A DNA stretch of 64,000 nt from Sipunculus nudus. Taxonomy: Eukaryota; Annelida; Sipuncula; Golfingiida; Sipunculidae. The stretch's first letter is position 1, and every line of letters starts with the position of its first letter. Below, piece by piece: positions 1,648 to 61,292 of the stretch. Where the stretch lies: contig CM049318.1 in NCBI GenBank assembly GCA_026874595.1, positions 47,348,456 to 47,412,455 of the forward strand, given 5' to 3'. The notes beneath the pieces are model-generated. The model made no database searches. It saw only the letters and a list, made by a program, of their open reading frames with translations, and was not told the DNA's origin. A program made the position numbers and the translations under genes.

Positions 1648-2870
1648 ATGGCAGATTTCAAACCTGAGAAATTTGTTTACGATCCCGACCCTTATCAACT
1701 TGAACGGTTGACAAAGGAACAGTTGTTGTGTTTGGGACAACACTTAGGGCTAAGTGTGAAAAGAGCTTTGAGAAAGCCTGATATCATTGCTAAAATCATG
1801 CAGGATCTAGTTAGTAAAGGTTTAATTGATGAGAGTGAAGTTGAAACATAAAAAAATGACAGCCTTTCTATGCAATTAGAATTTAAAAAGTTGGAAATGC
1901 AACATGAGCTAGCATTAAAGGAGAGGGAGGAACATGAAAGGTTCGAAAGAGAAAGACTAGAAAAAGAAATAGAAACAGAAAGACTAGAAAAAGAAAAAGA
2001 AATTGAGTTAAAACGACTGGAGTTAGAAAGACTTAAACTAGAACATAGTCTACGTGCTGCCCAAACTCACAGTTTTGATGTTGCTAAACACATTAGACTT
2101 GTCCCACCTTTTCAAGAAAAAGAGGTTGATGAATATTTCTTGCATTTTGAGAAGGTAGCTGGAAATTTAAAAAAGGCTTAAGGAAATTGGACTATGCTGT
2201 TAAAAAGTGTATTGACTGGCAAGGCCAGAGAAATTTATACAGAGCTTTCAGTAGAAGCTGCAGCTGACTATGACCTGGTAAAGCGGTTAATCCTAAAAGG
2301 TTATGAAATAGTTCCGGAGGCTTACCGCCAGAAATTCAGAAATTGGGAAAGCGCAAAGATCAGACCTACGTTCAATTTGCTAGGAGTAAAGAGCAGTTGC
2401 TTGATCGCTGGTGTAATTCTAAAAATGTAATGAAAGGTAATGACAATTTGCGCCTGTTAATTTTGCTTGAAGAATTTAAGCGCTGCATTAACGCAGATGT
2501 TAAAATTTTTCTTGATGAGAAAAGTCCTGAAACACTTGACATTGCTGCTCAATTAGCTGATGATTATTCATTAACACACAAAATGTCCTTTACTAGCAAA
2601 TCAAACCAGTCATTCACAAACAATGATGTAAATCAGTATGGTCAAAAGAAGTTTAAAGCGCAGTCAGCCAGAACTAGTAGTCCTGATAGTTCAGCAAAGT
2701 CCATTGCTACATCTCAGTCCACGTCCACTGTGTCTAAGTCCAACCAAGTCCAATCATTTTCAAAGAAAATCTGTAATTACTGCAAGAAGGAAGGTCATCT
2801 AATATCTGACTGCTGGAAACTTGCGAATAAACCAAATAGCAAACCTTCTGGTTTCAAAGTCTATGCATAG
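1648..2870 (+). pseudogene. Broken gag-like gene (coiled coil, SCAN-like, zinc knuckle)
   Basis: Retroelement structural protein that would coat element RNA. Domains in order: an N-terminal helical segment (1648-1851), a charged Glu/Lys/Arg coiled coil (about 1870-2050), a SCAN-like capsid segment (about 2100-2580; it includes VPEAYRQKFRNW and later LLDRWC and LADDY), a Ser/Thr-rich linker, then a zinc knuckle CNYCKKEGHLISDC (CX2CX4HX4C) near 2776-2820. Breaks: TAA at 1849-1851 and TAA at 2179-2181, both leaving the same frame open on the other side, and a frameshift between about 2343 and 2400. The ATG at 1648 begins the first conserved segment, so I take it as the start. I did not write out a repaired frame. 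The SCAN-like call rests on pattern memory of Gypsy gags in metazoans. Confidence 0.7.
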
Positions 2871-2965
2871 CTTAGTACAAGAGCCAGGCTCTTCTTTTAA
2901 TGTAAATAAGGGGTACAACTCCTTTATTGACTCTTATAAAGTAGTTTGATGCTACGGAGGCCCAA

Positions 2966-3740
2966 GTGCCGTCTGAATCCCAAGAAGAATCCGTAGCTTG
3001 CGGGGTTAAACCCTCTGTTGATTCCTGCGAGGAATTAAATAAGGCTAGGTCCTTTCAAGACACCTGCAAGGAGTATCCTTTAAATAAGGCTAAGTACTTT
3101 TATGACTCTTGCGAGAGTATTTCAAATGAGGCCAGGTCCACTTATGACAAACAGAAGTTTGTTTCTGCTGAGGAAAATTCCTCTGTTGACTCCCATGAGG
3201 AGTTTGATGATAAAAAGGATGTAGATTCCTTAAATGACTCTGAAAAAGAGTTTATGACTGACACTGTCAATGTCAGTTCTTTGTTTTATGAAGCTGAGGT
3301 AGTAGATTCCTCTCCTGATTCTGAAATGGAGTTATTTGAGCCATTCATAAATAATGGTTTTGTATCACTTTCAAGTGATTTTTCAGATTCTACCCCTATT
3401 AGAATTTTGAGGGACACTGGTTCAGGCCAGACTCATGTTAGCAAACACTTTGCCATTTTCTAATATGTCTTTTACTGGCGCACATGGACTTGTTTATGGT
3501 GTGTTTTCAGACAAGCACACTTCAGTTCCGCTTCACAGTATAAATTTAAAGTCTGATTTGATTTCTGGGAATATTACTGTGGGCAAAAGAACTATTTTAC
3601 CCTTTAAGGGAATTCAGTTGCTACTAGGCAATGATGTTGCAGATGACAAAGTAGAGCCTGTACCAATAGTGACAGAAAAGCCGTCACTTGATCAGGACAC
3701 TTATCCGGAAAGTCAGGAAATTCCTGACCTTTCACCTTAA
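2966..3740 (+). pseudogene. Retropepsin-like protease region, frameshifted
   Basis: An acidic Ser/Asp/Glu-rich linker (2966-3370) with repeated DSCEE/DSHEE-like motifs leads into ILRDTGSGQTHV (near 3400-3440), which carries the D-T-G-S catalytic motif of pepsin-type retroelement proteases. The next frame (3435-3740) continues with the second half of the fold and a LLLGNDVA block, in the place where retropepsins have their conserved late I-L-G-x-D-like strand. The change of frame near 3440-3460 breaks the domain. The region ends in a stop at 3738-3740 and no polymerase follows. It lies in a different frame from gag, so expression would have needed frameshifting or bypass, if it was not simply broken there too. 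Confidence 0.65.
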
Positions 3741-4985: not shown

Positions 4986-6785
4986 GATGACATTGAGAAC
5001 ACATAGATAGACCTGGTGGTGGATACTGTATCGTTTTGCCGTCTTCATTATAAAAGGCATGGAGCAGGTGCTCGTTCACTGAACCTCCCATACAAATATA
5101 TTTTTATGCTTATTTTAGTTTGTCGCAAGAAGCAAGGCGTTTACCACCTGTGGATTGTTCTTTTCAAAGAAGGGAACCAATTTACCATAACATTTTTGTT
5201 TTTGTACTGTTTGTTTTCAAGACCGATGAAGCATGCACCAGCTTGCAGAGATTATTGATTTAACGAGTGGCTGTGTTTGGCTGTTAATTTAGGAAAGGTA
5301 GGCCTATTGATTATATCATGATTATCGAAATGACGGAGTTGAACACATGGCAAACTCACTCAGTTACCGTTGTGTCTTGTAAGTCCATGTTATTGCTGTG
5401 TTTCTTTATCGCAGAATGCCAGTCATCATGATGTCAAAATTAATCATGTTGGCTGAGAATATTTAAATTATTGGCTAGATTTTTGATGGGCCCCTCTTGC
5501 CCAGTAGACTCATAACTCATACACAACATATGCCACTAGAAATATTTTTTTTTTTGTGGTGGGGAATAATAATTTTTCGGTCTAATATGAAAATTATATC
5601 AACTATTTTACAAATTATTAACCAAACCTATATCTCAGGCTGAGGACACACCGAACATCTCACGGATTATGCCAAATTCATTAATGTTTTAATGCAGGTA
5701 GGTTGCCATGTGATGTCATCTAATAACGCGGTCATCACGTAATTTAGACGTCACGCAGCAATCTTCAGGTAATATAGTAATGGCGTAGAGCAATAATGAT
5801 TTAACGATTCTCGTTGCACGATGGAATAAAGACTGGAGTTAGCATCAAATGTTTTATTGGTACATATACACATCTCTGTGCACCCTCGTGTGAGCTTTTA
5901 CTGCTTAAGCCACCTGTCCGCGGCATGACAAACTAATTTAAATAGTCATGGCGGCCGCGTCGTTACGCGTGTGGTTGCATTAGGAACAGCACTGCTTTGC
6001 ATAAAACTTTTAAAACTCTTAAAAAGATGACGAGTCTCTATGAGGTTCCTGAAAGATGCGTTCAGTTATCCATGGTCTGTTTTTTATTTAATATCAATGT
6101 GATTGGAGCGACACTGAAAAAGAAAATGACAGGATGGGTTACGTACACTGGATTATCCTACCCGTTCATTACTTTGAATACTTGAACGTTCACCAGTTTA
6201 GTTTCGTCCTAAATACGACATATGGTGCTCTAGTATTTGATAACGAATGGTTGAACTGTTTTAATATTAATTGATAACAGAATAACTCACCAGTTACAGG
6301 TGAAGATTAGCACATGCCGTAGTTATAACATGTGTAAAGATACTTTGTAAATTAATAATTAAGAGATCACGGACAGATTATTACAAACCCTACTTACCAC
6401 ATATTTTATAAATAGAATAAAATTTTTTTGTTGGTGTTCTAGGAAATTCTGAACATTTTGTAATGTCTGACCCTATGAGTCCGAGAAACACGTCCGGCTT
6501 TTGTTCACAATAGTAAATGCCGACAGATCACGCTGCGATAAGTCCTTGAAATTTTAATTTGAAATGTATCTTGATCAATGGGAAAAATTAGGAAAATGAA
6601 CCCCCTTAGGACACAATTTTTATCATTCCCGACAGTTCAAAAAAGGACATCTCCAAGGCGTGGCTACAGAGGAGTTCCGTTTCAAGTATCACCATCAATT
6701 ATAGATTCGCTTCAAGATTTACCGGAAGTACGGTAGACAACTCGTGATTTCAATAATTCAGTAGGAAATTACAAATACGAGTAAA
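4986..6785. other. Non-coding DNA, nothing recognised
   Basis: AT-rich. Open frames are short (maximum about 80 codons) and show no domain, repeat or compositional bias that would support a gene. No tandem array, tRNA or element boundary was seen until the TIR at 6786. Confidence 0.5.
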
Positions 6786-6843
6786 AGTGCGGCGGCAAAT
6801 GGAAAAATTGTTCAAATTGTGATAAAAGTACCAAATTTGGTAC
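6786..6843 (+). repeat. Left terminal inverted repeat of composite copy 1
   Basis: Begins AGTGCGGCGG and ends with a perfect 12-bp palindrome ACCAAATTTGGT at 6830-6841. The inner 26 bases match the reverse complement of the right end with about one mismatch; the middle contains small indels. Confidence 0.75.
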
Positions 6844-7365
6844 AGTTGTAGTATTGTACACTGGCTTTCATTTAAGAAGTAGTTCCACGAAATATTCATG
6901 GTATTTCAGGGGTGGATCCTGTAATTAGTTTGGTTGTACCGATGAATAAATTAAATAATTGATAAATAATGTATAATCTTAAAGTGTTCGATCAAGGCCC
7001 TTTATTTTGCAAAACATGAAATACAGAAGTCTGCTGATGCTCTAACTTTACTTTCAAGGGAAGTTAATTCAGTTTAACATGCGACCAGATTAATGGAACA
7101 GGATGTATTTATTTATCAAGTACTGTGCAGAACTAACGCGATTTAGCACGCCTTTTTAATTTTGTTAACATGTATATATCGCAAACATGTTTCATGTAAA
7201 TTATAACAAAATATACCAATTACTAACTAAATAAAGGGTATGTGACAACAAGAATTATTACATGGGTATAATTATAACTATTTATGTTTGTCAATCAGCC
7301 TACTCAAGAGAAAGTTAATTATTCAGTAAAAATGTTTCGGAACTCTGCCTGTCTACTCTTCCTGT

Positions 7366-7960
7366 TCATATGAGGGCTCTAGACCTATTGAATAACACAC
7401 CTGTCAGAATTCCAATATGGCCCCCACAGCCCAATAGCTGAATTTCTTCCGCACGTGATAACTCAACAACAACAACATACTTCAGCTCTCCCAAATTCAC
7501 AGGGATGATTGTAACATACGAGGGCTTCAGACCTATTGAATTACAGACTTGCCGGAATTTCAATATGGCCACCAGATAATAATGGGTGATTTTCTTTCGC
7601 ACCGGATATCTCAACAAAATTTGCTTGATTTTTATCATTATATCCGGGATCATTGGTGCCTATGCGGACTCGATCCCTTTTCAATAACAAACCTGTCAGA
7701 ATTCCAATATGGCTCCCAGAGCACATTTGGGGGATATTCTTTTAAGCGCGATATCTCGACTAGAACATAGAACAAGCTTGATCTATCTCATTTACGCAGA
7801 GGTGATTGGAGACCTGTCGGAATTCCAATATGGCAACCAGAGCACTATCGTTGATTTTCTTTCGCAACAATATGCTTGATCTTTCTCAAATTCACAGGGA
7901 TCATTGGTGCCTATTAGGGCTTTTGGCCTATTGAAATACAGACTTGCTAAAAATAAAATA
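7366..7960 (+). repeat. Array of about 145-bp monomers upstream of the LINE
   Basis: About five degenerate direct repeats. Recurring blocks are AGGGCTTCAGACCTATTGAA, CAGAATTCCAATATGGCCAC, TTGATTTTCTTTCGCAC, ATATCTCAACAA and GGGATCATTGGTGCCTATG. The array ends about 180 bases before the first LINE coding motif. Tandem monomers directly upstream of a LINE can act as its promoter in other families, so this may be the LINE 5' UTR; alternatively it belongs to the TIR element. Confidence 0.8.
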
Positions 7961-8142
7961 AGGCCAACAGACTACACACATTATGTCAGACATATCATAT
8001 TTAATATTATTTGAACCAGTAGGATTTTCCCTCATGCATATGGATAAAATCCTGTTTCTGTTGTCATATTTTTCAATATTAACTTAATTTTTCACCCATA
8101 TGTAATTTAGTCCAGCACTAGCAGAAATGCTAATGCAGAATT

Positions 8143-9170
8143 AGCAACATTGAATGCACATGGACTTAAGAACAAAATTAAATCAGTAGAAGTCAAACAA
8201 TTGATAAATAATCACAGTATTGTATGTATCACTAAGACATGGGCAACCACAGATAATGAATTTTCTGATGCGTTTCACGGGTACTATGGTTATGGAATAG
8301 TCAGGAAGAGTATAGGGAGAGGAGGGGTCTTAGTTTACGTGCAACAGAAATTAAAGGGTATGATGGTGCCTTAATTAATGAAGATAAAGATTTGGTCATA
8401 GTTTGCTGCTATATTGCGCCAGCAGGTTCATCATTCTATGTGGATGAAGATGAAATAAATGGTATCAACAGGCTGGAAATTTTATTGGTATATACTTTAG
8501 CAGAATTTGATGAATTTAATTTAATTCTCCTTGGTGATTTTAATGCTAGAACTGTAAATATAACAGATATACCAGATATTCCAGGAGACTGAATTACGTG
8601 TTTTACTCCTTTTGGTAGCAGTGTAGTTGATTATGTAATTGTCAGTAGTTGTCTACTTCATAAGGTAGATGGATCCTGTGTATTATCAGATGATCCGTCC
8701 GATCACTTTCCTTTAAGCTGTTCACCTAATATTATCAGACCAAGGAAAGAGCTTTCGAATGAACACATATGCGAACTGACAAAATGGGTAAAATTTTATC
8801 AGACTGATGAAGATAAAACAAATATTTCAAAATCATTAGAACAAATAGAATGTGCGTTACTTTTCAACACATTTAATGAAACCTTAAAAACATATCCGGA
8901 CAAAGCAAGTGAGGCATTGGTTAGTATTTATCAAATTATATTCTACAGAAATAAACTAAACTTTCCGAGACAATATGAAACTAATGCAACAAAATGGTGG
9001 GACAAAGAATGTGAATTTTGGAAAAATGAAAAATATATTGCTTTGAATAAGTATATATGTACAATATCAGATGGCGACTTACTTAATTATAAACAAACAA
9101 GACAGAGGTTTAAAAAATATGAGAAGAAAAGAAGGCAATCATCCAAGCCTCAGAGGTGGAAAAGGTGATA
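8143..9170 (+). pseudogene. LINE endonuclease half, copy 1 (broken)
   Basis: Apurinic-like endonuclease of a non-LTR retrotransposon, which would nick target DNA. Visible pieces: LNAHGL (catalytic Asn region), CITKTW at about 8228-8245, RGGVLVYV, then after a frameshift near 8348 VIVCCYIAP and LLGDFNART, a TGA at 8590-8592, then DYVIVSS and SDDPSDHFPL (SDH motif) further on. The family usually has T-E-T-W where this copy has T-K-T-W, so the catalytic Glu is replaced by Lys (codon 8234-8236). A further linker segment with EFWKNEKYIALNKYI runs at 8917-9168. Not functional. Confidence 0.85.
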
Positions 9171-11065
9171 GGTGCAAAAGACACTGGTTCCATGTGAAAA
9201 AACATGAGATTTTTAAATAAAAAGAAAATTGTTACAATAGTAGAACCGGTACGTTTGTATACAAACATTTTAAGGAACTTTTGAATTCATCAACACATGA
9301 AATTAATCAAGAGTTTAAGAATCCTACTCTGGAATATTTAAAAAATGTATTAGAAATTGAAAAGGAGACAAAGCTTGATGGACTCATAACACCATGTGAA
9401 GTACAGAAAGCCATAAATGAAATGAAAAAAGGAAAGGCCTTCGGGCCTTCGATATAGTCACATATCGTCTCATATATTACAATTATTTATTAGTGTATTA
9501 GGAAATGGATTTTCCCAGCCTCTTGGAGCAAAGCATTTTATGTACCAATTCACAAAAAGGCTTCCACCATAGATCCTAAAATATTATAGAGGTATTTCAT
9601 TACTTAATACCGTGGGTAAACTATTTACAAAAATATTGGCAAACAGAATTCAAAATTATGTTGATCAAGCTGGATTATTATGTGAAGCACAAGCTGGCTA
9701 TAGGAAAGGTTATTCAACAGTAGACCATTTATTTTCTTTAAAGGGATGTGTGCAGAATTATTTAACTGCTTTTGATAGTATACAACATTATTTTATTGTG
9801 GTATGTTTCAGTTAAATCTGGGATAAAAGGGAAACTCTTACAGACACTTCAGTCAATATTTAGTCAATGAAATCATGTCTTCTTACAGAGGAAGGATTGA
9901 CAGATTATTTTGAATGTACTAACGGAACTCGACCAGGGTGCATGGTGATTCCCCTTCTGTTTTCTTTATTCATAGATGAATTTTATGAACAAATTAATGA
10001 AACAGATTGTCATGGTATAAATATTGATGAATATTTGACAAACTTAATGACACTAATGTACGCTGATGATTTAGTATGCTTCGGCGATACAATAGGACGT
10101 CTCCAAGAACAAATAAACCAGTTGCAATTTTTTTCCTGTCAATTATGGCTTAAACGTTAATTTAGGAAAGACAAAAATTATGATTTTTAGACACGGGGGT
10201 TCATTAAAAAGAATGGGGAAATGGCACTATCAAAAATACTCAAATTGAAACGGTAAATTACTATAGATACTTAGGGGTAATATTTACAAGTACATTGTCA
10301 TGGTATAAAACCATATGGTAAGAAAGCGCAGGCAATACAGGCTGTTTGAGCAGTGACTCTCATAAAAAAAACTTATATAGGAAATAAAGTTGTTTATCAG
10401 TGAGCCAGCTATTTTATCGATTTGATTGTATGGTTACACCGGTATTATTATTTGGTTCAGAACTGTGGGGCTATGAAAGATGTGAAATAACTGAAAAAGG
10501 TGCAATATAAATTTTGCAAGTATATTCTAAAATTTAGCTCTTCAGCTCTAAACGCAGCATCATTGGGAGAGTTTGGGAGGCATCCGATGTATGTCGGTCA
10601 GTTATTAAGATGTGTAAAATACTGGACAAAACTACTAACATTACGGTAAAAATAGATATCCAAAGCGTATATATAACATGCTGTTTAATCTAGATATGAA
10701 TGGAAAACACACGGGTTACTCATATAAGAAGCAAATATGCAGCGAAGGTTTCGGGTATTTGTGGATGAATCAAGAAGTAGGAGACATTAGAATATTTTTG
10801 GCAGAACAAAACTGGTCTTGTGATGTAGAAGTAAATACTAAATTTAATTTATATGGTACTTTTAAATCTATGCTCTCAATGGAGAAATATTTACTGTGTG
10901 ACTAATACCAAGCATAAACAAGCGCTAGCCAGATTGAAATGTTCAAGTCATGATTTGATGATTGAAAACGGAAGGTATAAGCAAATTGATAGAGTTTGTT
11001 GGTTTTCAAGATTTGTTTGTAGAAATAAAAATTTAAAACGTTGTTTAGTTGTACATTTACGATAA
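9171..11065 (+). pseudogene. LINE reverse-transcriptase half, copy 1 (broken)
   Basis: Pieces in order: the region before RT motif 1 ending FG-P (the GPDGI block is deleted near 9445); GKLFTKILANRIQ and AGYRKGYSTVDH (9612-9760); a junction QNYL-TAFDSI where about a dozen residues including the first catalytic Asp of motif A are missing; NGTRPGCM, then YADD at 10059-10070; NLGKTKIMIF just after; many frameshifts to 10660; a C-terminal part with GEFGRHPMYVGQLLR and finally CSSHDLMIENGRY before a stop at 11063-11065. That C-terminus recalls LINEs common in bivalves and corals, but I cannot name the clade. Loss of motif A and multiple frameshifts make it dead. Confidence 0.85.
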
Positions 11066-11729
11066 CATTTTAAAAGAATGTACCCTGATAATTAAATATG
11101 ATCCGCCCCTGGAAATTCAGGGGTTTATTTCAGTGCTCATTTGGAAATGTCCATAAGCTCATTAATACAAACAACAGATATTTTGCACTAAAACAATAAA
11201 ACTGTACATGCTTTTTAAGCACGAAGCAACATACACATTGTATGATGAAATATGTAATGTTAATAACCCATACAACGTAAGTAGTACCCCCCCCCCTCAT
11301 TGCCCTCTCCCATCGTCTCCTATATTCACAAAGGAGATATCGACGAGATGTGAATTGGTATAGTGATTATACCTTACTTTAAAACAGAAGATTTATGTCA
11401 TATTTAACATTAATTAACTTTAGTTAACTACATGTCGTTGAAAGGCAAATAGTCATTTTTTAATTACAAATGTTTACATTAATGAGATCACAAAGGTAAT
11501 TTTATTACATTTCTCATGATGATGTTAATTAAATAGAACCAAATATTCTTAAATTTTACCCAATCTTTAAGGAATGTATAAGATGTAATGTAACTATGAT
11601 GATCTTCCGTGTATTTTTTCATATAAATTTGAGTACCCCAAATTTAACATAGGCTCCGCCCGCGTTACACTGAGAAGATTTGGTGGAACTAATAAAAAAA
11701 TGAAAATGTATTATCCAAACTTCATCTCC

Positions 11730-11795
11730 ACCAAATTTGGTAATTTTATCACAATCTGAGCATTTCTTCTGTATTTTACCGTTAACCGCTGCACT
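11730..11795 (-). repeat. Right terminal inverted repeat of composite copy 1
   Basis: Read on the minus strand it begins AGTGCAGCGG and, after about 40 bases, reaches ATTGTGATAAAA and the palindrome ACCAAATTTGGT (11730-11741), in the same order as the left end. Confidence 0.75.
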
Positions 11796-12098
11796 ATAAA
11801 GAATACAGGGTAACAGCACACTTAGCAGATAACCCCATCTCATATGACTGAACTGCACCTTCCGTGGGTATCTGACTTAGCCCAGGTGACTGTCGACATA
11901 GTGACAAACCGACACGGGCCTCTGGTAATTTGTAAACAAGTTGGTATTGCTGTAACTAAGCCCCAACACTGTATAGTAAGGGGAGGATTTTTATCTTACG
12001 TCCCAAGTGCAAATCCATCAATTTTCATTTTTTTCTTTCTTTCTTGGTTCTGCCCGTGTTTGCGTTGGATCTCAAATCTGGCTAATTAAAAAAAAATT
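11796..12098. other. Spacer between two elements
   Basis: No gene, tRNA or array recognised. It ends in a poly-A-like run just before the hairpin-bounded element. Confidence 0.5.
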
Positions 12099-13142
12099 AG
12101 ATTTGTCGGAACGACACGAATGCCCCCGCCTGGGGCAAATTAGAAATATTTGTTAAATTTTGTAAATTTTTTTAAGCTCAGGAGGTGTCGTATGGTCAAA
12201 AGTAGGTCAACAAGGGCAAAATGCAAACTTGACCTGTAATGGGTCATTATCAAGCAACACACCAAAAATCAGGCCAGTATCTGCAGGCATTGTGAAAAAA
12301 GTCCATACATGTGCATTTTTCATAAAAATTTCTGTCTTTCATGAAATTTTCTATGTTCAGGACCTGTCATATGGTCAAAATAGGTCAACTGGGACGAAAC
12401 GCGAACTCGATCTGTAAGTGGTCATTATGCGCCCACAGACCAAACATTAGGTCAGTATCTGTAAGCACTGCATTGCGAAACCAGAATATTGGCAAAAGCT
12501 GATAATCAGTTATAAATTTAAATTGGAGAGGTATGTACCATGTTTCATAACAATCCACCAAATGCTTCCTGAGAAATAAGCTCCTAAGTTTTTTTCTATA
12601 CTAAGCTCTGTGACCTTGAAAAGTAGGTCAAGATCACCCATCTTTGAACTTGACCAAGATTATGTAAATATCATGCAATAGCACTGAAGAAATGAAGTTC
12701 CCGTACATGTGTATTTTTTATGAAAATTTATATTTTTCATGAAATTTTCTATGTTCAGGAGCCGTAAAACGGTCAAAAGTAGGTCAACTGGGACGAAACA
12801 CAAACTCGATCTGTAACTGGTCAATATCTGCCCGCACATAAAAAATCAGGCCAATATCTGCAGGCATTGCGAAAAAAAGTCCGTACATGTGTATTTGTCA
12901 TGAAAATTTAAATTTTCATGAAATTTTCTAAGTTTAGGAGCCGTAAAACGGTCAAAAGTAGGTCAACCGGGACGAAACGCGAACTCGATCTGTAACTGGT
13001 CATTTTCTGCCCACACACCATAAATCAGGTCAATATCCGCAGGCATTGCGAAAAAAAGTCCGTACAACTGTTTGATTTCAGAATGACGGAAGGACGGACA
13101 TGGGTAAAACTATATGCCCCGGCCACTTTGTGGCGGGGGCAT
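12099..13142 (+). mobile_element. Hairpin-bounded element with about 180-bp repeats, copy 1
   Basis: Starts with a small perfect hairpin TGTCGGAACGACA followed by GAATGCCCCCGCC. It ends with a hairpin at 13114-13142 (ATGCCCCGGCCAC, loop TTT, then GTGGCGGGGGCAT; one stem mismatch). The start GCCCCCGCC and end GGCGGGGGC are also inverted repeats of each other. Between them are about five units of about 180 bp marked by GGTCAAAAGTAGGTCAAC and GCAGGCATTGCGAAAAAAAG. One interval (about 12490-12690) has related but different sequence with a TGACCTTGAAAAGTAGGTCA block. The whole thing recurs at 46834-48012. The architecture resembles bivalve 'pearl' elements or Helentron-associated non-autonomous elements; no protein is encoded. 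Confidence 0.75.
13114..13142 (+). repeat. 3'-terminal hairpin of the element
   Basis: 13-bp stem with one mismatch and a 3-base loop, followed by ATAAAA, identical in position and near-identical in sequence in the 46.8-48.0 kb copy. A fixed hairpin at one end is a hallmark of rolling-circle type elements, but the CTRR terminus of classical Helitrons is absent. Confidence 0.7.
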
Positions 13143-20620: not shown

Positions 20621-21721
20621 ACAAATATTGTTCACCAGATAATGACATTAATAATTAATACATGCATCACCAGTAGGTCGAATTCAGCTGAGCGTCATGG
20701 CCCATGAGCCACTTGATTTAAGATCCTGTGTCCGCTCCCTGGACAAGATGCAATAAAAAAATGGCGCCACCAATCTTATTCAAATGAGTAAACTATCGAT
20801 GATAAATAAGCAGATGTTTTACGTCAGCATACCTACATAAATCCCGAGTTGATATATTGCCATGATTGCTGTAATAACGGTGGTCTCAAAAATACAAGTA
20901 ATGCCCATAAAAATTTAAATAGCTCAAAATTTAAACATTTGACGCCAGCTCTCGTTGGTCTGATTCTTGGCCGTGTGCCAGCGCCGGTGTAGTTGGTAGC
21001 TAAAATAATAGCCTTTTTAAAGGTTGCCACTGCAGGGAAACGTCATTATCATGCTGGCTATTTTACTGGGAACTTGTCCCCGGGGAATGTGGGCAGGTGA
21101 AGGCAGATGGATTGTCCTGCCCAATATTGAACAGTTCTCGAATGACTGAGGCAGAAAGATAAGCTTAACACTTATGACCAATATACCCTTACAGCTTTGC
21201 AACTGTCATTTAATTTATTTCAACGAGGGCGCCATGCATGGCAAGATCTTCATCACATGTATGTATCTGCTCTGTGTAAGTCAGGGGTCACGTACAAACC
21301 CGCAATCGTTGACCCACGTGTCGCTTTTGTTCAAAGGGATCTGATGTTTATGTCTGATGTCGTGTGCACCTCTAATGCTGAAGAACAACCAAAAGTCTCT
21401 TATTCCAAGGTCAGTGAAATTGCCGCCACATAAAGCAAGAATGAACCAGGGAATATGGGCCGAAGTGAATGTCCACATGGCGGAGACTTGTTTTCTATCG
21501 AATTTTATATCAGTTTTGAAATGTTCCAATGATATTTTCCAGCCGTAAAAAATTGAACATGATAAATGCACTCTATACGAGAGATGTTATGGAAGTAATT
21601 GTGTCAATGATAATCTTAAGCCACGGGATAAGAATAAGCCGGGCTGTTCTTCATCGTGTTACGTATTTGACTGATCTTTCGACTAGTTAACATATCAGTG
21701 CATGATGTTTAGTGTTATTTA
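20621..21721. other. Non-coding DNA, nothing recognised
   Basis: Overlapping short frames on both strands near 21200-21570 have no recognisable domain. Confidence 0.45.
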
Positions 21722-23228
21722 CTGAACCCAACCGTAGTCATGGCCGATACCGAAAAGTCGACTTACTGAGCACAGCCGTAGTCATGGCCGATACCGAAAA
21801 GTCGACTTACTGAACACAACCGTAGTTATGTCGAAACCGAAAAGTCGACTTACTGAACACAACCGTAGTCATGGCCGATACCGAAAAGTCGACTTACTGA
21901 ACACAACCGTAGTCATGTCGAAACCAAATAGTCGACTTACTGAACACAACCGTAGTCATGGCCGATACCGAAAAGTCGACTTACTGAACACAACCGTAGT
22001 CATGGCCGATACCGAATAGTCGACTTACTGAACACAACCTTAATTATGGCCAATATAGCGAATAGTCGACTAACTAAACACAACCGTAATTTTGGCCAAT
22101 ATAGCAAATAGTCGACACACTAAACACAACCGTAATTATGGCCAATATAGCGAATAGTCGACTAACGAAACACAACCGTAATTTTGGCAACTATATAGCG
22201 AATAGTCGACTAACTAAACACAACCGTAATAATGGCCAATATACCGAATAGTCGAATAAATGAACACAATCGTAATTTTGGCCAATATACCGAATAGTCG
22301 ACTAACTAAATACAACCGTAATTATGGCCAATATAGCGAATAGTCGACAAACTAAACACAACCGTTATTATGGCCAATATACCGAATAGTCGACTTACTG
22401 AACACAACCGTAATTTTGGCCAATATAGCAAATAGTCGACTAACTAAACACAACCGTTATTATGGCCAATATACCGAATAGTCGACTTACTGAACACAAC
22501 CGTTATTATGGCCAATATACCGAATAGTCGACTTACTGAATACAACCGTAATAATGGCTAAAATAGCGAATAATCGACAAACTAAACACACCCGTAATAA
22601 TGGCTAATATAGCGAATGGTTGACTAACTGGACACAACAATTATTATGGCCAAAATACCGAATAGTCGACCTACTGAATACAACCGTAATTATGGTCAAT
22701 ATACCGAACAGTCAACTATCTGTTCACAACTGTTATTATGGCCAATATACGAATAGTCGGCTATCTGAACACAACCGTAATTATGGCCAATATACCGAAT
22801 AGTCGACTATCTGAACACTTCCGTAATTATGGCCAATATACCGAATAGTCGACTTACTGAATACAACCGTAATTATGGCCAATATACTGAATAGTCGACT
22901 ATCTGAACACAACCGTAATTATGGCCAATATACCGAATAGTCGACTATCTGAACACAACCGTTATTATGGCCAATTTACCGAATAGTCGACTATCTGAAC
23001 ACATCCGTTATTATTGCCAATATTCCGAATAGTCGACTTACTGAGGACAACCGTTATTATGGCCAATATACCGAATAGTCGACTTAATGAACACAACCTT
23101 AATTATGGCCAATATACTGAATAGACGACTATCTGAACACAACCGTAATAATGGCCAATATACCGAATAGTCGACTTAATGAACACAACCGAAATCATGA
23201 ACAATATACCGAATAGTCGACTTCGGAA
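21722..23228. repeat. Satellite, 44-47-bp unit, about 32 copies, GTCGAC in most units
   Basis: Unit built of CGAATAGTCGACTTACTGAA, CACAACCGTAATTATGG and CCAATATAC. The first seven or so units (to about 22030) are a subfamily with CATGGCCGATACCGAAAAG; the rest carry TATGGCCAATATAC(C)GAATAG. The switch is abrupt. Most units contain the palindrome GTCGAC. Length, homogeneity and frequent single-base differences indicate a true satellite block. There are no unique spacers, so this is not a CRISPR array. Confidence 0.95.
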
Positions 23229-31960: not shown

Positions 31961-32590
31961 GACACGCTGACCTCCTGGAGTATTACTAAGTATGACACGC
32001 TGACCTCCTGGAGTATTACTAAGTATGACACGCTGACCTCCTGGAGTATTACTAAGTATGACACGCTAACCTCCTGGAGTATTACTAAGTATGACACGCT
32101 TACCTCCTGGAGTATTACTAAGTATGACACGCTAACCTCCTGGAGTATTACTAAGTATGACACGCTAACCTCCTGGAGTATTACTAAGTATGACACGCTA
32201 ACCTCCTGGAGTATTACTAAGTATGACACGCTGACCTCCTGGAGTATTACTAAGTATGACACGCTAACCTCCTGGAGTATTACTAAGTATGACACGCTAA
32301 CCTCCTGGAGTATTACTAAGTATGACACGCTAACCTCCTGGAGTATTACTAAGTATGACACGCTAACCTCCTGGAGTATTACTAAGTATGACACGCTAAC
32401 CTCCTGGAGTATTACTAAGTATGACACGCTAACCTCCTGGAGTATTACTAAGTATGACACGCTAACCTCCTGGAGTATTACTAAGTATGACACGCTAACC
32501 TCCTGGAGTATTACTAAGTATGACACGCTAACCTCCTGGAGTATCACTAAGTATGACACGCTTTACCTCCTGGAGTATTACTAAGTATGA
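31961..32590. repeat. Highly homogeneous minisatellite, 33-bp unit, 19 copies
   Basis: Units of CCTCCTGGAGTATTACTAAG and TATGACACGCTAA, mostly identical; the main variant is CTAACC versus CTGACC or CTTACC. Because the period is 33, the minus strand stays open for 219 codons and would encode SVSYLVILQEV about 18 times. I do not call it a gene: there is no non-repeat domain, and third-position changes are not favoured. Confidence 0.95.
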
Positions 32591-46833: not shown

Positions 46834-48012
46834 TAGATGTGTCGGAACGACACGAATGCCCCCGCCTTGGGCAAATTAGAAACATTTGTAAAATTTGGAA
46901 AATTTTTTAAGTTCAGGAGGTGTCATATGGTCAAAAGTACGTCAACAAGGGCAAAATGCAAACTCGATCTGTAACGGGTCATTATCAAGCAACACACCAA
47001 AAATCATGCCAGTATATGCAGGCATTGTGAAAAAAAGTCCATACATGTTCATTTTCCATAAAAATTTCTGTCTTTCATGAAATTTTCTATGTTTAGGATC
47101 CGTAAAACAATCAAAAGTAGGTCAACCAGGATGAAACGCAAACTCGATCTGTAACTGTCATTATCTGCCCACACAAAAAAAAATCAGGGTGGTATCTGCA
47201 GGCATTGAGGAAAAAAAGTCAGTACATATGCATTTGTTATGAAAATTTATATTTTTCATGAAACTTTCTATGTACAGGAGCAGTCAAATGGTCAAAAGTA
47301 GGTCAACTGAGACAAAACAGGAACTCGATCTGTAACTGGTCATTATCTGCCTACACACCAAAAATCAGGCCCATATCTGCAGGCACTGCGAAAAAAAGTC
47401 CATACATGTGCACTTTTTTATGAAATTTTCTATGTGAGAGCACCGCCAAACGGTCAAAAATAGGTCAACCAGGACAAAACGCGAACTCGATCTGTAACTG
47501 GTCTATATCTGCTCACACACCAAAAATCAGGCCAATATCTGCAGGCATTGCGAAAAAAAGTCCGTACATGTGTATCTGTCATGAATATTTCTATTTTTCA
47601 TGAAATTTTCTAAGTTTAGGAGCCGTAAAACGGTCAAAAGTAGGTCAACCAGGAGGAAACGCGAACTCGATCTGTAACTGGTCTATATCTGCCCACACAC
47701 CAAAAATCAGGCCAATATCTGCAGGCATTGCGAAAAAAAGTCCGTACATGTGTATCTGTCATGAATATTTCTATTTTTCATGAAATTTTCTAAGTTTAGG
47801 AGCCGTAAAACGGTCAAAAGTAGGTCAACCGGGACGAAACGCGAACTCGATCTGTAACTGGTCTATATCTGCCCACACACCAAAAATCAGGCCAATATCT
47901 GCAGGCATTGCGAAAAAAAGTCCGTACAACTGTTTCATTTCGGAATGACGGAATGACGGAATGACGGACATGGGTAAAACTATATGCCCCGGCCACTTTG
48001 TGGCGGGGGCAT
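46834..48012 (+). mobile_element. Hairpin-bounded element with about 180-bp repeats, copy 2
   Basis: Same start (TGTCGGAACGACA, GAATGCCCCCGCC) and same end hairpin (47984-48012) as 12099-13142. Six tandem units are marked by GGTCAAAAGTAGGTCAAC near 46929, 47109, 47289, 47452, 47633 and 47813. Two neighbouring units (about 47580-47940) are almost identical, so the array expanded or was homogenised locally after insertion. The end region also has a small GGAATGAC triplication. Non-coding. Confidence 0.78.
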
Positions 48013-53165: not shown

Positions 53166-54109
53166 TATGCCAAGTTAAGAACAATAATAAAGGTATGCTG
53201 ATTGATATCATTTTAAAGAAAACCTTTTCATTTCAGTAAAATTAAGTCAATGGTCAAAATAGAAAATGCTTATAAAGATCATGTTCAAGCAAATACAGGT
53301 CAAGGTCACTCAAGCAATAATCAGTTTGAGGGATTCATATGTCGCTGTTTGCCTCAAAATGAGAACTCTGAGTGCAATGGCGCTGGTAAACAAATACAAA
53401 AGATACCAAATGGCCACTATGAATTTACCCAGGAAACTAAGCCGAGGATCGCATCTAGAAAAAAAATTATCATGGCAGTGCATAAACCATGATAAAATGT
53501 TGTGGCAGCATTCCTGAGATATAAGCATTAGAACATTGCGGGCATGGACGCCCATCTGATCAGAACAAGATGGAGTCGCCAGCACTGTCGAGCAGACAGT
53601 TGTAAACGATAGCACAGCATTTTCGTTTCTGGACACCCTGGGCAAGATTTGGTAGAGCTGATAAAATGCCACACTAATGTAGAAAACACGACCTCCCTAG
53701 CAATAACGTGACCGAGTTACAAGTATTTCGGGAAAACTCGTTTATTTACATTTGATGGTACTCAAGGCAGGAAATGAGACCTCTCTAGCATGAAAAGTGA
53801 CCTCATCATAAGCATTTTCTAAAAATTTCGTTTTTTTTTCTCGATTGACGGGAGATGTCGCAAGTTGCAGTCGATTGACTGAGAGCTGATCAAATCTATC
53901 CCAAAGAAGTGAACTAGAGCTCTAGCATGAAAAGTGACCGAGCTATAAGCATTGTCGTGATATCTCAATTTTTCATAGAGGCCAAACATCTTATACTTAA
54001 TATGGGATCGCAATGGATAAAACATTTCTTCTACATTTTCGATAATGGATTTGACAGAGTTCAATTGGGTATTGCACACATGTAAACCCACCAAATGTAA
54101 TGTGTTATT
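53166..54109. other. Non-coding DNA with a small local repeat
   Basis: CTAGCATGAAAAGTGACC appears near 53788 and 53920, so part of this may be an old tandem repeat. The minus-strand frames at 53310-53672 and 53819-54223 have no recognised domain, and the second runs into the composite's TIR. Confidence 0.4.
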
Positions 54110-54699
54110 AGTGCGGCGGCTAATGGAAAAAATGTTCAAATTGTGATAAAAGTACCAAATTTGGTACAGTTGTAGTATTGTACACTGGCTTTCATTTAAG
54201 AAGTAGTTCCACGAAATATTCATGGTATTTCAGGGGTGGATCCTGTAATTTCTTTGGTTGTACCGATGAAGAAATTAAATAATTGATCAATAATGTATAA
54301 TCTTAAAGTGTTCGATCAAGTCCCTTTATTTTGCAAAATATGAAATACAGAAGTCTGCTGATGCTCAAACTTTACTTTCAAGGGAAGTTAATTCAGTTTA
54401 ACATGCGACCAGATTAATGGAACAGGATGTATTTATTTATCAAGTACTGTGCAGAGCTAACGCGATTTATCACGCCTTTTTAATTTTGTTAACATGTATG
54501 GATCGCAAACATGTTTCATGTAAATTATAACAAATTATACCAATTACTTAATAAATAACGGGTATATGACAACATGAATTATTACATGGGTATAACCATA
54601 ACTATTTATGTTTGTCAATCAGCCTACTAAAGAGCAAGTTAATTATTCAGTAAAAAATGTTTCGGAACTCTGCCTGTGTACTCTTCCTGTTCATATGAG

Positions 54700-55260
54700 G
54701 GCTCTAGACCTATTGAATAACACACCTGTCAGAATTCCAATATGGCCACCACCGCCCAATCGCTGATTTTCTTTTGCACGTGATCACTCAACAACAACAA
54801 CATACTTCAGCTCTCCGAAATTCACAGGGATGATTGGTACATACGAGGGCTTCAGACCTATTGAATTACAGACTTGTCGGAATTTCAATATGGCCACCAG
54901 ATAATAATGGGTGATTTTCTTTCGCACCGGATATCTCAACAAGAATATGCTTGATTTTTATCATTTTCTCCGGGATCATTGGTGCCTATGCGGACTCAAT
55001 CCCTTTCCAATACCAAACCTGTCAGAATTCCAATATAGCTCCCAGAGCACAATTGGGGATATTCTTTTAAGCGCGATATCTCAACTAGAACATAGAACAA
55101 GCTTGATCTATCTCATTTACGCAGAGGTGATTGGAGACCTGTCGGAATTCCAATATGGCCACCAGAGCACTATGCTTTATCTTTCTCAAATTCTCAGGGA
55201 TCATTGGTGCCTATGAGGGCTTCAGGCCATTTAAAATAAAGACTTGCTCAAAATCAATTA
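54700..55260 (+). repeat. Array of about 145-bp monomers, copy 2
   Basis: Same degenerate monomers as 7366-7960. The last monomer is shorter than in copy 1 by about 35 bases (a TTGATTTTCTTTCGCA-type block is missing near 55172). Confidence 0.8.
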
Positions 55261-55450
55261 AGGCCAACAGACTACACACATTATGTCAGACATATCATAT
55301 TTAATATTATTTGAACCAGTAGGATTTTTCCCTCATGCATATGGATAAAATCCTGTTTCTGTTGTCATATTTTTCAATTTTAACTTAATTTTTCACCCAT
55401 ATGTAATTTAGTCCAGCACTAGTAGAAATGCTAATGCAGAAATAGCAAAA

Positions 55451-56225
55451 TTGAATGCACATGGACTTAAGAACAAAATTAGATCACTAGAAGTTAAACA
55501 ATTGATAAATAATCACAGTATTGTATGTATCACTAAGACATGGGCAACAACAGATCATGAATTTTCTGATGCATTCCACGGGTACTATGGTTATGGAATA
55601 GTCAGGAAGAGTATAGGGAGAGGAGGGGTCTTAGTTTACGTGCAATAGAAATTAAAGGGTATGATGGTACCTTAATTAATGAAGATAAAGATTTGGTCAT
55701 AGTTTGCTGCTATATTGCGCCAACAGGTTCATCATTCTATGTAGATGAAGATGAAATAAATGGTATCAACAGGCTGGACAATTTATTGGTATATACTTTA
55801 GCAGAATTTGATGAATTTAATTTAATTCTCCTTGGTGATTTAAATGCTAGAACTGAAAATATAACAGATGTACCAGATATACCAGGAGACTGAATTACGT
55901 GTTTAACTCCTTCAAAATCGTTAGAACAAATAGAATGTGCCTTACTTTTCAACACATTTAATGAAACCTTAGAAACATTTCCGGACAAAGCAAGTGAGGC
56001 ATTGGTTAGTATTTATCAAATTATATTTTTACAGAAATAAACTAAACTTTCCGAGACAACATGAAACTGATGCAATCAAAATGGTGGGACAAAGAATGTG
56101 AATTTTGGAAAAATGAAAAATATATAGCTTTGAATAAGTATATATGTACAATATCAGATGGCGACTTACTTAATTATAAACAAACAAAACAGAGGTTTAA
56201 AAAATTATGAGAAGAAAAGAAGGCA
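55451..56225 (+). pseudogene. LINE endonuclease half, copy 2 (broken)
   Basis: LNAHGL, CITKTW (Lys codon 55535-55537 in the catalytic Glu position, as in copy 1), RGGVLVYV, then a TAG at 55646-55648 where copy 1 has CAG. After the shared frameshift come VIVCCYIAP and LLGDLNART (Phe to Leu), then the shared TGA at 55891-55893. The next part of the domain, including the SDH motif, is deleted after about 55910. The linker with EFWKNEKYIALNKYI follows. Confidence 0.85.
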
Positions 56226-58175
56226 ATCATCCAAGCCTCAGAGGTGGAAAAGGTGATAGGTGCAAAAGACACTGATTCCATGTGGAAAAACATGAGATTT
56301 TTAAATAAAAAGAAAATTGTTACAACAGTAGAACCGGTACGTTTGTACAAACATTTTAAGGAACTTTTGAATTCATCAACACATGAAATTAATCAAGAGT
56401 TTAAGAATCCTACTCTGGAATATTTAAAAAATGTATTAGAAATTGAAAATGAGACAAAGCTTGATGGACTCATAACACCATGTGAAGTACAGAAAGCCAT
56501 AAATGAAATGAGTAGAGGAAAGGCCTTCGGGCCTGACGGGATAACGGTAGATATATTGAAAGATACATAAAGTCACATATCGTCTCATATATTACAATTA
56601 TTTATAAATGTATTAGGAAATGGATTTTCCCAGCCTCTTGGAGCAAAGCATTTTATGTACCAGTTCACAAAAAGGCTTCAACCATAGATCCTAAATTATT
56701 ATAGAGGTATTTAATTACTTAATACCGTGGGTAAATTATTTACAAAAATATTGGCAAACAGAATTCAAAATTATGTTGATCAAGCTTGGTTATTATGTGA
56801 AGCACAAGCTCGCTATAGGAAAGGTTATTCAACAGTAGACCATTTATTTTCTTTAAAGGGGTGTGTGCAGAATTATTTAACTGCTTTTGATAGTATACAA
56901 CATGATTTATTGTGGTATGTTTCAGTTAAATCTGGGATAAAAGGGAAACTCTTACAGACACTTCAGTCAATATTTAGTCAATGAAATCATGTCTTCTTAC
57001 AGAGGAAGGATTAACAGATTATTTTGAATGTACTAATGGAACTCGACCAGGGTGCATGGTGAGTCCCCTTCTGTTTTCTTTATTCATTGATAAATTTTAT
57101 GAACAAATTAATGAAACAGATTGTCATGGTATAAACATTGATGAATATTTGACAAAATTAATGACATTAATGTACGCTGATGATTTAGTATGCTTCGGCG
57201 ATACAATAGGACGTCTCCATGAACAAATAAACCAGTTGCATTTTTTCCTGGCAATTATGGCTTAAATGTTAATTTAGGAAAGACAAAAATTATGATTTTT
57301 AGACACGGGGGTTCATTAAAAAGAATGGGAAAATGGCATTATCAAAAATACTCAAACTGAAACGGTGAATTACTATAGATACTTAGGGGTAATATTGTAA
57401 TAAGTACATTGTCATGGTATAAAACAAAGAAAGCGCAGGCAATACAGGCTGAATGAGCAGTGACTCTCATAAAAAAAACTTTTATAGGAAATAAAGTTGT
57501 TTATCAGTGAGCCAGCTATTTTATCGATTTGATTGTATGGTTACACCGGTATTATTATTTGGTTCAGAACTGTGGGGCTATGAAAGATGTGAAATAACTG
57601 AAAAAGGTGCAATATAAATTTTGCAAGTATATTCTAAAATTTAGCTCTTCAGCTCTAAACGCAGCATCATTGGGAGAGTTTGGGAGGCATCCGATGTATG
57701 TCGGTCAGTTATTAAGATGTGTAAAATACTGGACAAAACTAGTACATTACGGTAAAAATAGATATCCAAAGCGTATATATAACATGCTGTTTAATCTAGA
57801 TATGAATGGAAAACACACGGGTTACTCATATAAGAAGCAAAATATGCAGCGAAGGTTTCGGGTATTTGTGGATGAATCATGAAAGAGGAGACATTAGAAT
57901 ACTTTTGGCAGAAAAAAACTGGTCTTGTGATGTAGAAGTAAATACTTAATTAAATTTATATGGTACTTTTAAATCCATGCTCTCAATTAATGGAGAAATG
58001 TTAACTGTGTGTGACTAATACCAAGCGTAAACAAGCGCAAGCCAGATTGAGATGTTCATGTCAAGATTTGATGATTGAAAACGGAAGGTATACGCAAATG
58101 GATAGAGTTTGTTGGTTTTCAAGATTTGTTTGTAAAAATAAAACTTTAAAACGTTGTTTAGTTGTACATTTACGA
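56226..58175 (+). pseudogene. LINE reverse-transcriptase half, copy 2 (broken)
   Basis: Contains RGKAFGPDGITVDIL (56510-56560), GKLFTKILANRIQ, the same QNYL-TAFDSI junction that lacks the first catalytic Asp of motif A, a frame change at 56981 shared with copy 1, NGTRPGCMVSPLLFSLF, YADD at 57173-57184, then frameshifts, GEFGRHPMYVGQLLR (57607-57882) and the C-terminal ENGRY and RCLVVHLR region to 58175. Dead. Confidence 0.85.
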
Positions 58176-58909
58176 TAACATTTTAAAAGAATGTACCCTG
58201 ATAATTAAATATGATCCGCCCCTGGAAATTCAGGGGTTTATTTCAGTGCTAATTTGGAAATGTCCATAAGCTCATTAATACAAACAACAGATATTTTGCA
58301 CTAAAAACAATAAAACTGTACATGCTTTTTAAGCACGAAGCAACATACACATTGTATGATGAAATATGTAATGTTTATACAGTGAACCCATACTAAGTAA
58401 GTAGTACCCCCCACCACCCCTCCTCATTGCCTTCTCCCATCGTCTCCTATATTCACAAAGAAGATATCGACGAGATGTGAATTGAGAATAGTGATTATAC
58501 CTTACTTTAAAACAGAAGATTTATGTCATATTTAACAAATAAATTAACTTCAGTTAACTACATGTCGTTGAATTGCAAATAGTCATCTTTTAATTACAAA
58601 TGTTTACACAAAGGTAATTTTACATTTCTCATGATGATGTTAAATAAATAGAATCAAATATTCTTAAATTTTACCCCATCTTTAAGGAATGTATAAGATG
58701 TAATGTAACTATGTTGATCTTCCGTGTATATTTTCATTTAAATTTGAGTACCCCAAATTTAACATAGGATCCGCCCCCGTTACACTGAGAAGATTTGGTG
58801 GAACTAATAAAAAATTAAAATGTATTATCCAAACTTCATCTCCACCAAATTTGGTAATTTTATCATAATCTGAACAAATCTTCTGTATTTTGCCGTTAAC
58901 CGCTGCACT

Positions 58910-61292
58910 ATATATTTTGTATCGGATTTCATACTCCCATCCTTCCATACTTCGAGTTAGTGGATGGCCAGCAGCTAGTGAATCGCATCTCGCATGGTCA
59001 GGAAAAAAACAAATGAACCCTGACACAAATATAATCTTTGGTAACTTATTCTTTTTTCCGAATCATAGAAACATGTCAGTTTCTTAAACGACTTTCCTCA
59101 TAAGCACAATAAAAACAAGTTGAAAAACTGAACTTTGCGTTCACGTAACATTCTACTTTTTCTGAGAACCACAAAGGAGACATTATTTTAATTAATTACC
59201 ATGGTTTGCAATTGCGATATTGAATAAATATTTTAATTTTGGTATCAAGACCAACCCAATTTTGCATAATACAAATTAAAACGTCCACCTGTTGCTGTTG
59301 CTTACATGATGTTATACTGATCTGGGAACATGAAAACCAATGTTTAGATATAATATGTGACCATAATTATGGTTAATTCTTATGATGTTGAAGAAGGTAC
59401 ACCTTTTGGCCCGTATTTTCATACTACGAATAGCCGATGTAGTTTTGAAGATGATTTTACCTAAAATTTCTTTCTGATCTGTGACTGACAACTAGGTCGT
59501 ACAAAATAGTGTGGAATTTGTCAAAATAGCGAGATATGACGGAACCGTTGCCTCCACCTTTGACGTATTATGGTTGAACCAGGAAAAGGTTCAGCAATGT
59601 TTCTCTATAGATTAATACTTTTTACTTATTTATTGATTTCGTCTGCCTGCTGTGAACAGAATTGGTTAAAACGAGATCTTTCATCAAGGTCAACTATTAA
59701 TATTAATGAATTACCATGTTTGATATTTATAACCCTTGATCAATTAAACTATGGATTTAAATACCATAACGCTCCTAAAATGCAGCACGCATATTGCCGT
59801 GAAACATGAGAAAGTTGGCCGAAATTGCAAAATATTAAAATTAAAAACTGAAAAAGAATTAGGACAAGATTTCATATTTGACAAAACAGAATCCTTTTTA
59901 CTTGATACATTATGAAATTATTCATTCATCCATGGCGATCCTGGTTTATAAATAAAAGTTGTTATTTTGAACCATCAGCTTTTAGAGCAGGATATTTATA
60001 TGATAACACCGCATAGGGCAGGTTGAGCACGCAATTATTCTATGGACTACCCTAAATCCAGATTTCCTATATATAGAAATTATTAAATACAAGGTGGTTT
60101 GAACATGTTTGCTCAAAACTATCATCGATTGTACTTAAATTATCGAAGAAAACAAGGTTTTGATTCTTGGCAACCTTAATCAACATAAAATAAAATGTAC
60201 CCCAAGCCCCAGATATAGTTTTTAATGTGCGTTTTTTTTTAAATCTTTGACCATAAAAAACCTGGGTCTAGACATAATATTGGAACAATAACATATATAT
60301 TTCTTGGGAAATCGGAAAAAATAAACGCTAATGGTGTCCTTAATTAGCATTTTTCCTTGAAATATTGGAGAAAAAAAGATTTACATCCATAGCACAATAA
60401 AAATTCAAATGTAGGCTACTGCTAATCCTCGTTATATATGGTTTTATAATAAACTGACCATGGAAACTAGGTTCTGCATGGATGTAATAACTGACAGATT
60501 ATAAGGGGCCTACTATTGGTTTCTGTTATATTTGAAACAGTAGACCTGATTTAAATGGTGGCATTATTTCCATATTACGAAAATTTAAAAATTAAAATGT
60601 AATTCACACCGTTGTTTTTATGCTATATGATATCATACTCTAAAAATTGAAAACACGTCCAATCGTTTAAATTTAGACACTATTTTGTCCCCTTTTTTTA
60701 AACACGTCGTCGGGTTTCCAAACTTATTTCAAAATATATTTCAAATATATGTTTTCACGTTTCAGCTTGAAAAATATTCAGGGATAGATGATGTAAACAT
60801 GTTTTGCAATATGTTTCAAATGAATCTCATGTTTCAGTTTTTACGGCTTAACCTGAAACAAGTGCCTTACTGATATGAAACCTAGCATGTTTCATATAAA
60901 CGGTCACACGTTTCAGCTTGAAACTGTCAAAAAGTGTAGAACGCCTTTTTGCCCCTTTTTTTCAACATGTTTGGTATATCTAAGAATGTTTCAGCTTCAA
61001 CATGTTTCAAATATTCACAAACACGTTTTAAGGAATCTTACGAATCTTGCCCACTTATAGCATTACGTCTCGATTATGCTACAATTGATACCATGCATGA
61101 TACAACGATTACAGAATAATGACACAGCCACTGTGTCTTTGGCCTATATGGTCCTAAAGCTACGATTGCGGTTCCGGCCACGGTAAGGTCGCGGTTGTTT
61201 ATACAGTCGAACATACGATATTATAAAGGACTGATTCCTTTTATGCGGTTGCGGTCGCAGTAGTTATCCGACCCGTCATCCGACAAAATTTT
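58910..61292. other. Non-coding DNA; repeated GTTTCAGCTTGAAA words near 60.7-61.0 kb
   Basis: No convincing gene. The frame at 59570-59809 has a hydrophobic N-terminal stretch (LYRLILFTYLLISSACC) that could mimic a signal peptide, but nothing else supports it. CACGTTTCAGCTTGAAA occurs at 60756-60772, again near 60907-60923, with shorter relatives to about 61030. Confidence 0.4.

Follow-up and report, generated by a model that had tools for sequence, protein, structure and literature searches.

A 64,000-nucleotide stretch of the Sipunculus nudus genome (assembly GCA_026874595.1, contig CM049318.1, positions 47,348,456 to 47,412,455; hereafter the window) contains two copies of a composite transposable element, in which terminal inverted repeats (TIRs) enclose a monomer array and a fragment of a long interspersed nuclear element (LINE). 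Our analysis confirmed that this TIR-bounded composite is real. We propose, with a probability of about 85%, that it arose when the interior of a DNA transposon was replaced by the array-plus-LINE block, and that the derivative was then amplified.

As first delimited, copy 1 spans 6786-11795 (5010 bp), and its end sequences AGTGCGGCGG (at 6786) and CCGCTGCACT (up to 11795) were both found. The true ends lie one base further out, at 6785 and 11796, and the element reads 5'-TAGTGC...GCACTA-3'. The original prediction, made from the letters alone, described the ends as inverted repeats reaching about 60 bases inward. An inverted repeat is indeed present, but it is longer and weaker than was stated, extending over about 160 bp at 69% identity in a gapped alignment, with 82% across one 51-nt stretch. 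Without gaps, the first 10 bases agree at 9 of 10 positions and 60 bases at 26 of 60, a low agreement caused by an indel. The local alignment score was 56, whereas 500 shuffles reached no more than 25 and 500 random window pairs no more than 26, and the TIRs are common to the composite copies, as in Class II TIR DNA transposons. A perfect 12-bp palindrome, ACCAAATTTGGT, is found within each of the four window TIRs (for example at 6830-6841) and is a possible protein-binding site.

Copy 2, at 54110-58909 (4800 bp) by the first boundaries, has the same orientation. Its similarity to copy 1 had been said to stop exactly at the ends, and this held at both boundaries save at the right, where several further A/T letters agree, with the correction that the true ends are one base outward; the flanks of the two copies are unrelated. 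Mismatches between the copies ranged from 0.7 to 5.6% by region (4.1 and 5.0% in the arms, 5.6% in the array and 3.2% in the main part of the LINE). Six-frame Pfam searches of the left and right parts of copy 1 gave only weak matches below the cut-offs and no transposase domain, consistent with the predicted TIR unit without a transposase. Rfam and tRNA searches gave no match, nor did a search with the TIR pattern in a viral contig collection.

The composite was then surveyed in the 1.43-Gb source genome, in which the window lies on sequence C13. A search with 161 bp of the left end returned 305 candidates, and the best 40 were scored, all with 94-100% identity; the best 20 left-end matches and the two window copies (c1 and c2) made up an examined set of 22 units. 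Counts from such scored lists cover the best candidates and are lower bounds, while pattern counts are whole but take in exact or near-exact matches only. Directly beside AGTGC/GCACT, target-site duplications (TSDs) were unclear from two copies and were resolved with more copies. When one further base at each end, T or A at the left and A at the right, was counted as element, an identical 3-bp TSD was found in 16 of the 18 units with both ends readable (L014, L015, L021 and L028 were dropped from the test). As controls, the ends of different units matched in 8/306 comparisons and other offsets in at most 4/18, and no 4- to 6-bp repeat stood at the TSD position in any of the 18 units. Thus a TSD, as had been suggested, does exist, but it is 3 bp long and not TA; a related coding unit on C6, described below, likewise has TAG/TAG, and such a fixed length is typical of Class II DNA transposons. 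An element with these ends and a 3-bp TSD points to DNA transposition, not target-primed reverse transcription (TPRT).

The LINE and the arms have also diverged together. The median distance among copies was 8.1% for the LINE and 7.2 and 7.4% for the arms, and the LINE and arm distance matrices were correlated (r 0.45, reached by 0/999 permutations; 20 copies, L013 and L014 left out). This correlation and the exact 3-bp TSDs indicate that the composite moved as one DNA unit, in line with the prediction of a LINE carried as cargo.

Inside copy 1, the fragment has the features of a LINE, an APE-type endonuclease and a reverse transcriptase (RT). The domain scan detected RVT_1 at 54.9 bits (cut-off 29.6) and Exo_endo_phos at 23 bits, just under the cut-off of 24.5; in a free LINE on C5 (L061) both domains were above the cut-off, and the structure matches were to LINE-1 ORF2p. 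The unit as a whole does not qualify as a non-long-terminal-repeat (non-LTR) retrotransposon, which has its own 3' end, TPRT-type TSDs and no TIRs. Minimal reading paths over 8121-11090 contained 16 and 19 lesions in the two window copies, compared with 43 on average when copy 1 was shuffled. Within the LINE, 5 lesions are at identical places in both copies and 2 or 3 more are within 30 bp, and a further shared lesion is at 11060, beyond the LINE end. These shared lesions indicate that a single ancestral unit, with a LINE that was broken by then, gave rise to both window copies. An endonuclease loss, whose site was readable in 14 of the 22 units, is common to the readable copies (Table 1). The stretch of RT motif A was kept in 15 of 18 readable copies; its loss and a stop at 8590 of copy 1 are limited to c1, c2 and L011, which means that the founder carried less damage than copy 1 does. 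We conclude that the founding copy had an incomplete endonuclease and C-terminus, and make no claim of a dead RT in the founder.

The LINE meets the right arm at a junction, GATAGAG|TTTGTTGG, that is identical in 20/22 units (in L014 and L015 the site is not seen) and was found at 115 genomic places with at most two mismatches, with 0 for the control. Where this junction is readable, about 80 C-terminal LINE codons are absent. Homology to a free relative (L062) was not found above shuffles beyond 10994 (score 46, shuffle mean 51), and a TSD around the LINE was not above shuffles for the boundaries tried.

LINE sequence was present in all 22 examined units, although L013 retains only about the last 160 bp and other units have internal deletions. 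The right-end search returned 206 candidates, of which the best 40 were scored and 30 were extracted together with 1.5 kb of sequence to either side, 6 of them already in the unit set. LINE sequence was found upstream of the right arm in 27 of these 30. The exceptions were L048, which belongs to the C6 unit, and L043 and L058, both interrupted inside the arm, L043 by other sequence; L044 is uninterrupted despite having the same outer flank as L043. An 18-bp end pattern occurred exactly 177 times in the genome (reversed-pattern control, 0), and the 100 places listed included 21 facing left-right pairs, 3.5-14.1 kb apart, and 58 unpaired ends. A right-arm pattern occurred 126 times. Among the 100 occurrences listed, 89 coincide with LINE junctions and 11 do not; 9 of the 11 still have LINE sequence upstream, which leaves two LINE-free arms, on C6 (L048) and C9 (L065; unit near C9:3862039), and 98/100 that bear the LINE.

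Three composites on C13, the window copies at 47355241 and 47402565 and L011 at 47514161, lie within 160 kb and are 2.7-3.8% apart. They share the RT motif A loss yet have different TSDs (TAA, TAT and GTT), which points to local transposition. On C2, at about 77-80 Mb, seven right ends (L038, L039, L049-L053) have one common flank, AGCATGTTG, and look like one insertion multiplied by segmental duplication.

The C6 unit, about 6.9 kb long, has the exact left end of the composite and a right end with one changed base. Its left arm (L071) is identical to copy 1 at 515/580 aligned bases, with homology up to 7372, where the array starts, and its right arm (L048) at 708/766 aligned bases, with homology from 10995. 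The interior contains a long protein frame followed by a cysteine-rich tail in L048, and the roughly 300 bp of non-LINE sequence leading into the arm are 81% identical between L048 and the C9 arm L065. The place of this protein in the unit, and motifs that we take to be Academ-like with an XPG-type nuclease (MDQPLY..., EEADTR...TVDTDVVVLAV...HAITGCD and the cysteine-rich tail), suggest that it is a transposase. A 70-residue stretch of it had 53 genome matches, the next best at 57% identity. Matches in open frames were found at C11:72059889 (974 codons), C2:30530687 (957), C15:58900084 (892) and C2:79317677 (840), and these four are possibly younger coding transposons of other families.

Free relatives of the LINE were found as well. 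L061 has an open frame of 1186 aa with endonuclease and RT, and lacks the composite ends and arms. L062 is 87% identical in DNA to copy 1 over the aligned stretch, has no arm homology or composite ends, and keeps its C-terminus; L063, of which 1.2 kb was read, is 91% identical over 207 bp. The homology of L062 and L063 to copy 1 starts at different internal points, as would be expected of 5'-truncated LINEs. A genome search with 97 RT residues returned 2915 candidates, and the best 150 were scored. In the upper half of these, most matches have 73-100% identity and short frames, and in the cases checked they are composites save for L062 and L063; below, most have 55-69% identity with frames up to 1286 codons, and they are other LINEs. 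Two matches, C9:32727094 (445 codons, 83% identity) and C11:8778606 (422 codons, 85%), were left outside the free/carried classification. Eleven RT matches cluster at C17:10.46-10.83 Mb with recurring spacings, which suggests a tandem segmental duplication. The viral contig collection contained no LINE relatives, and the genome contig collection gave two irrelevant bacterial matches.

In the history that we propose, a TIR DNA transposon of the cut-and-paste type, with a 3-bp TSD, would have been deprived of its internal transposase gene. The gap between the arms would have come to be filled by a block of 3.6 kb (7373-10994), made up of the array and the LINE fragment without the LINE 3' end. 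The block was most likely filler DNA captured in the faulty repair of a double-strand gap. The derivative would have retained the sequences recognised by its transposase, and was presumably amplified to well over 100 copies by transposase supplied in trans from coding relatives such as the C6 unit. A single replacement is the simplest history, and the shared right-hand join argues for one founding event, as judged from a right-hand join compared across units and a left-hand join seen in copy 1 alone. Only one base (G) at the right-hand join is common to both parents, and such an overlap resembles that left by end joining when gap repair is interrupted. In mouse zygotes, double-strand breaks have been reported to capture sequence from retrotransposons (PMC4516963). 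The original prediction had a small unit of the miniature inverted-repeat transposable element (MITE) type acquiring a LINE; the C6 partner indicates instead that the starting unit was apparently a transposon of full size, which then had its coding interior replaced. MITEs are non-coding and short, usually under about 1 kb; the 18 units that have both ends exceed this size, at 2.7-7.1 kb, and most of them measure 4-5.2 kb.

Several observations weigh against this history. The array had no match in the read parts of the C6 partner or in the three LINE loci read, and the first 1150 bp of L061 contained no direct repeats of 25 or more. The C6 unit shares only its arms with the composite in the parts read, and about 1.3 kb of it is unread. 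The autonomous element with the same TIRs whose existence had been considered was found only in part, since the C6 unit has the ends and a long coding frame but its gene is broken by four in-frame stops in 867 codons (frame 0 of L070), and no working transposase was seen. The partner protein had no Pfam or PDB match. Two of the 18 units lack a matching TSD (L020, TTA/TGT; L022, GAG/AAG) and 4 of the 22 were unreadable. Moreover, the 22 units are the best matches to the left end of copy 1, not a random sample, and are biased to young copies.

Nesting is the commonest route to composites, and the LINE might have been inserted by TPRT into an existing non-autonomous TIR element, the nested unit then being amplified. 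The long stretch of the LINE open reading frame (ORF) region kept in one piece would suit such an insertion, and later deletions could have removed its signs; the right arms looked at were, besides, 100 of 126. We nevertheless regard it as unlikely, as the LINE 3' end is absent, no TSD surrounds the LINE at the boundaries tried, and both LINE-free right arms (L048 and L065) run into the partner interior, not into the left side of the composite. A bolder version of the replacement history, somewhat less likely still, is that the LINE's own reverse transcription supplied the healing patch, and that the block, perhaps bearing a promoter, favoured the derivative until it nearly replaced its coding parent; if true, this would be a selectable route for class I elements to parasitise class II elements. 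That the unit as a whole belongs to a LINE family, with untranslated regions that happen to form the inverted repeats, and moved by retrotransposition would account for LINE sequence in every examined unit but is hardly credible given the fixed 3-bp TSDs, the LINE-free arms, the free relatives L061 and L062 without the ends, the different internal starting points of two close relatives, as in 5'-truncated LINEs, and an ORF with no sign of selection among copies. We give just as little credence to an origin of the two window copies by segmental duplication. They have one orientation and are separated by 47 kb, a third copy follows 112 kb further on, and some copies on C2 do share flanks; yet the unrelated flanks of copies 1 and 2 refute it for the window copies, and the three TSDs differ. 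The two outcomes that the original prediction named as fatal to a composite, LINE copies ending in the same TIR sequences and a longer segmental duplication, were not observed in what was tested: the ends are absent from the two free relatives L061 and L062, and flanks and TSDs differ from unit to unit, the seven C2 right ends notwithstanding.

It is very improbable that a LINE-derived protein still aids the movement of the element. In its favour, the RT motif A stretch survives in most readable copies, frames of about 200 codons hold some of the RT matches at 83-91% identity, and the C9 and C11 matches are longer (445 and 422 codons). However, substitutions among the composites are nearly equal over codon positions 1/2/3: singletons numbered 393/358/410, changes common to at least three copies 50/34/36, with no third-position excess at these shared sites, and changes private to c1, c2 and L011 16/13/23. 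Between free and carried forms there is a mild third-position excess (35/28/49 for L062 against the composite majority over 720 codons). The endonuclease loss is common to the copies and the C-terminus is absent. The LINE is thus a passenger, carried and not used, with no sign of selection among copies.

Table 1 Features of the composite and its copies, in window coordinates
Feature	Position	Strand	Evidence
TSD TAA, copy 1 left	6782..6784		flank comparison
Left arm of copy 1, left TIR in first ~160 bp	6785..7372	+	TIR alignment, partner comparison
Array of about four ~145-bp monomers	7373..7975 (start approximate, ~7367)	+	repeat analysis
LINE fragment (endonuclease and RT), ~codons 53-1107 of the L061 1186-aa ORF	8120..10994 (start approximate)	+	comparison with L061
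Loss of ~55 endonuclease codons, missing in 14/14 readable composite copies, present in L061 and L063	8568..8571	+	copy alignment
45-bp loss in RT motif A (YIDF region), only c1, c2 and L011 among 18 readable copies	9752..9772	+	copy alignment
LINE/right-arm junction	10994..10995	+	unit comparison, genome pattern
Right arm of copy 1, right TIR in last ~160 bp	10995..11796	+	TIR alignment, partner comparison
TSD TAA, copy 1 right	11797..11799		flank comparison
TSD TAT, copy 2 left	54106..54108		flank comparison
Copy 2, 3.7% from copy 1, without 216 bp of LINE after 8609 (relative to copy 1)	54109..58910	+	copy comparison
Right arm of copy 2, begins at the common LINE/arm junction	58108..58910	+	junction pattern at C13:47406556 converted to window coordinates
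TSD TAT, copy 2 right	58911..58913		flank comparison

Other features were also seen in the window. A repeat of about 180 bp is in tandem at 12701-13066 and 46900-47928, and by eye a similar sequence can be seen in L043, upstream of its right arm. A very regular array of 33 copies of a 46-bp unit occupies 21721-23222, and 33-bp units with 98% match, together with a 219-aa open frame, occupy 31961-32592. The open frames at 1870-3740 presumably resemble an LTR-retrotransposon gag with a zinc knuckle.

These results are of interest because one genome holds most of the pieces for reconstructing the formation of a non-autonomous transposon: closely related free LINEs, a coding relative that has the composite's arms, a 3' breakpoint in common and over 100 derivatives. 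The composite also offers an example on which gap-repair capture in animals can be tested. A dead retrotransposon that is multiplied by DNA transposition can, in addition, confound LINE copy counts and age estimates from repeat masking.

The 3-bp TSD, the size and the motifs of its protein suggest that the C6 partner may be Academ-like. The TSD of Academ is 3 bp (available text of PMC5199201), and Academ elements have a mean length of 5.6 kb and, among molluscs, are nearly confined to bivalves (available text of PMC10294476). The composite has the same TSD length and a comparable size, but no Academ gene was seen in it. Pack-TYPE elements, including Pack-MULEs, are non-autonomous TIR elements with foreign DNA between their ends, but the foreign DNA in the composite derives from a transposon instead of a host gene. 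Human Ricksha is a DNA transposon whose cargo comes from an endogenous retrovirus, while that of the composite comes from a LINE. Ricksha is classified as MuDR in the available text of PMC5753468. The modular MITEs of the pearl family in bivalves have arrays between inverted repeats (PMC5139131) and are thus, by description and not by monomer sequence, similar inverted-repeat elements with a short satellite-like array, but the available text describes no LINE in them. KolobokP, a bivalve-rich composite-like transposon, was considered and dropped, as the composite lacks the long terminal direct repeats given in the available text of PMC9587614. The closest precedent is MER6/MER6A of mammals, a mariner MITE with a V-SINE body (available text of PMC6887750). 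There too, a TIR DNA transposon with a piece of a retrotransposon as its interior was multiplied as one unit, but it has a short part of a short interspersed nuclear element (SINE) between mariner ends in place of a 3.6-kb array-plus-LINE block, while the composite belongs to another TIR family, has a 3-bp TSD and has a coding partner in the same genome. Retrotransposon cargo in a DNA transposon, which had been called unusual, has precedents; transposons are known to evolve along such lines, and the composite is a large and clear example.

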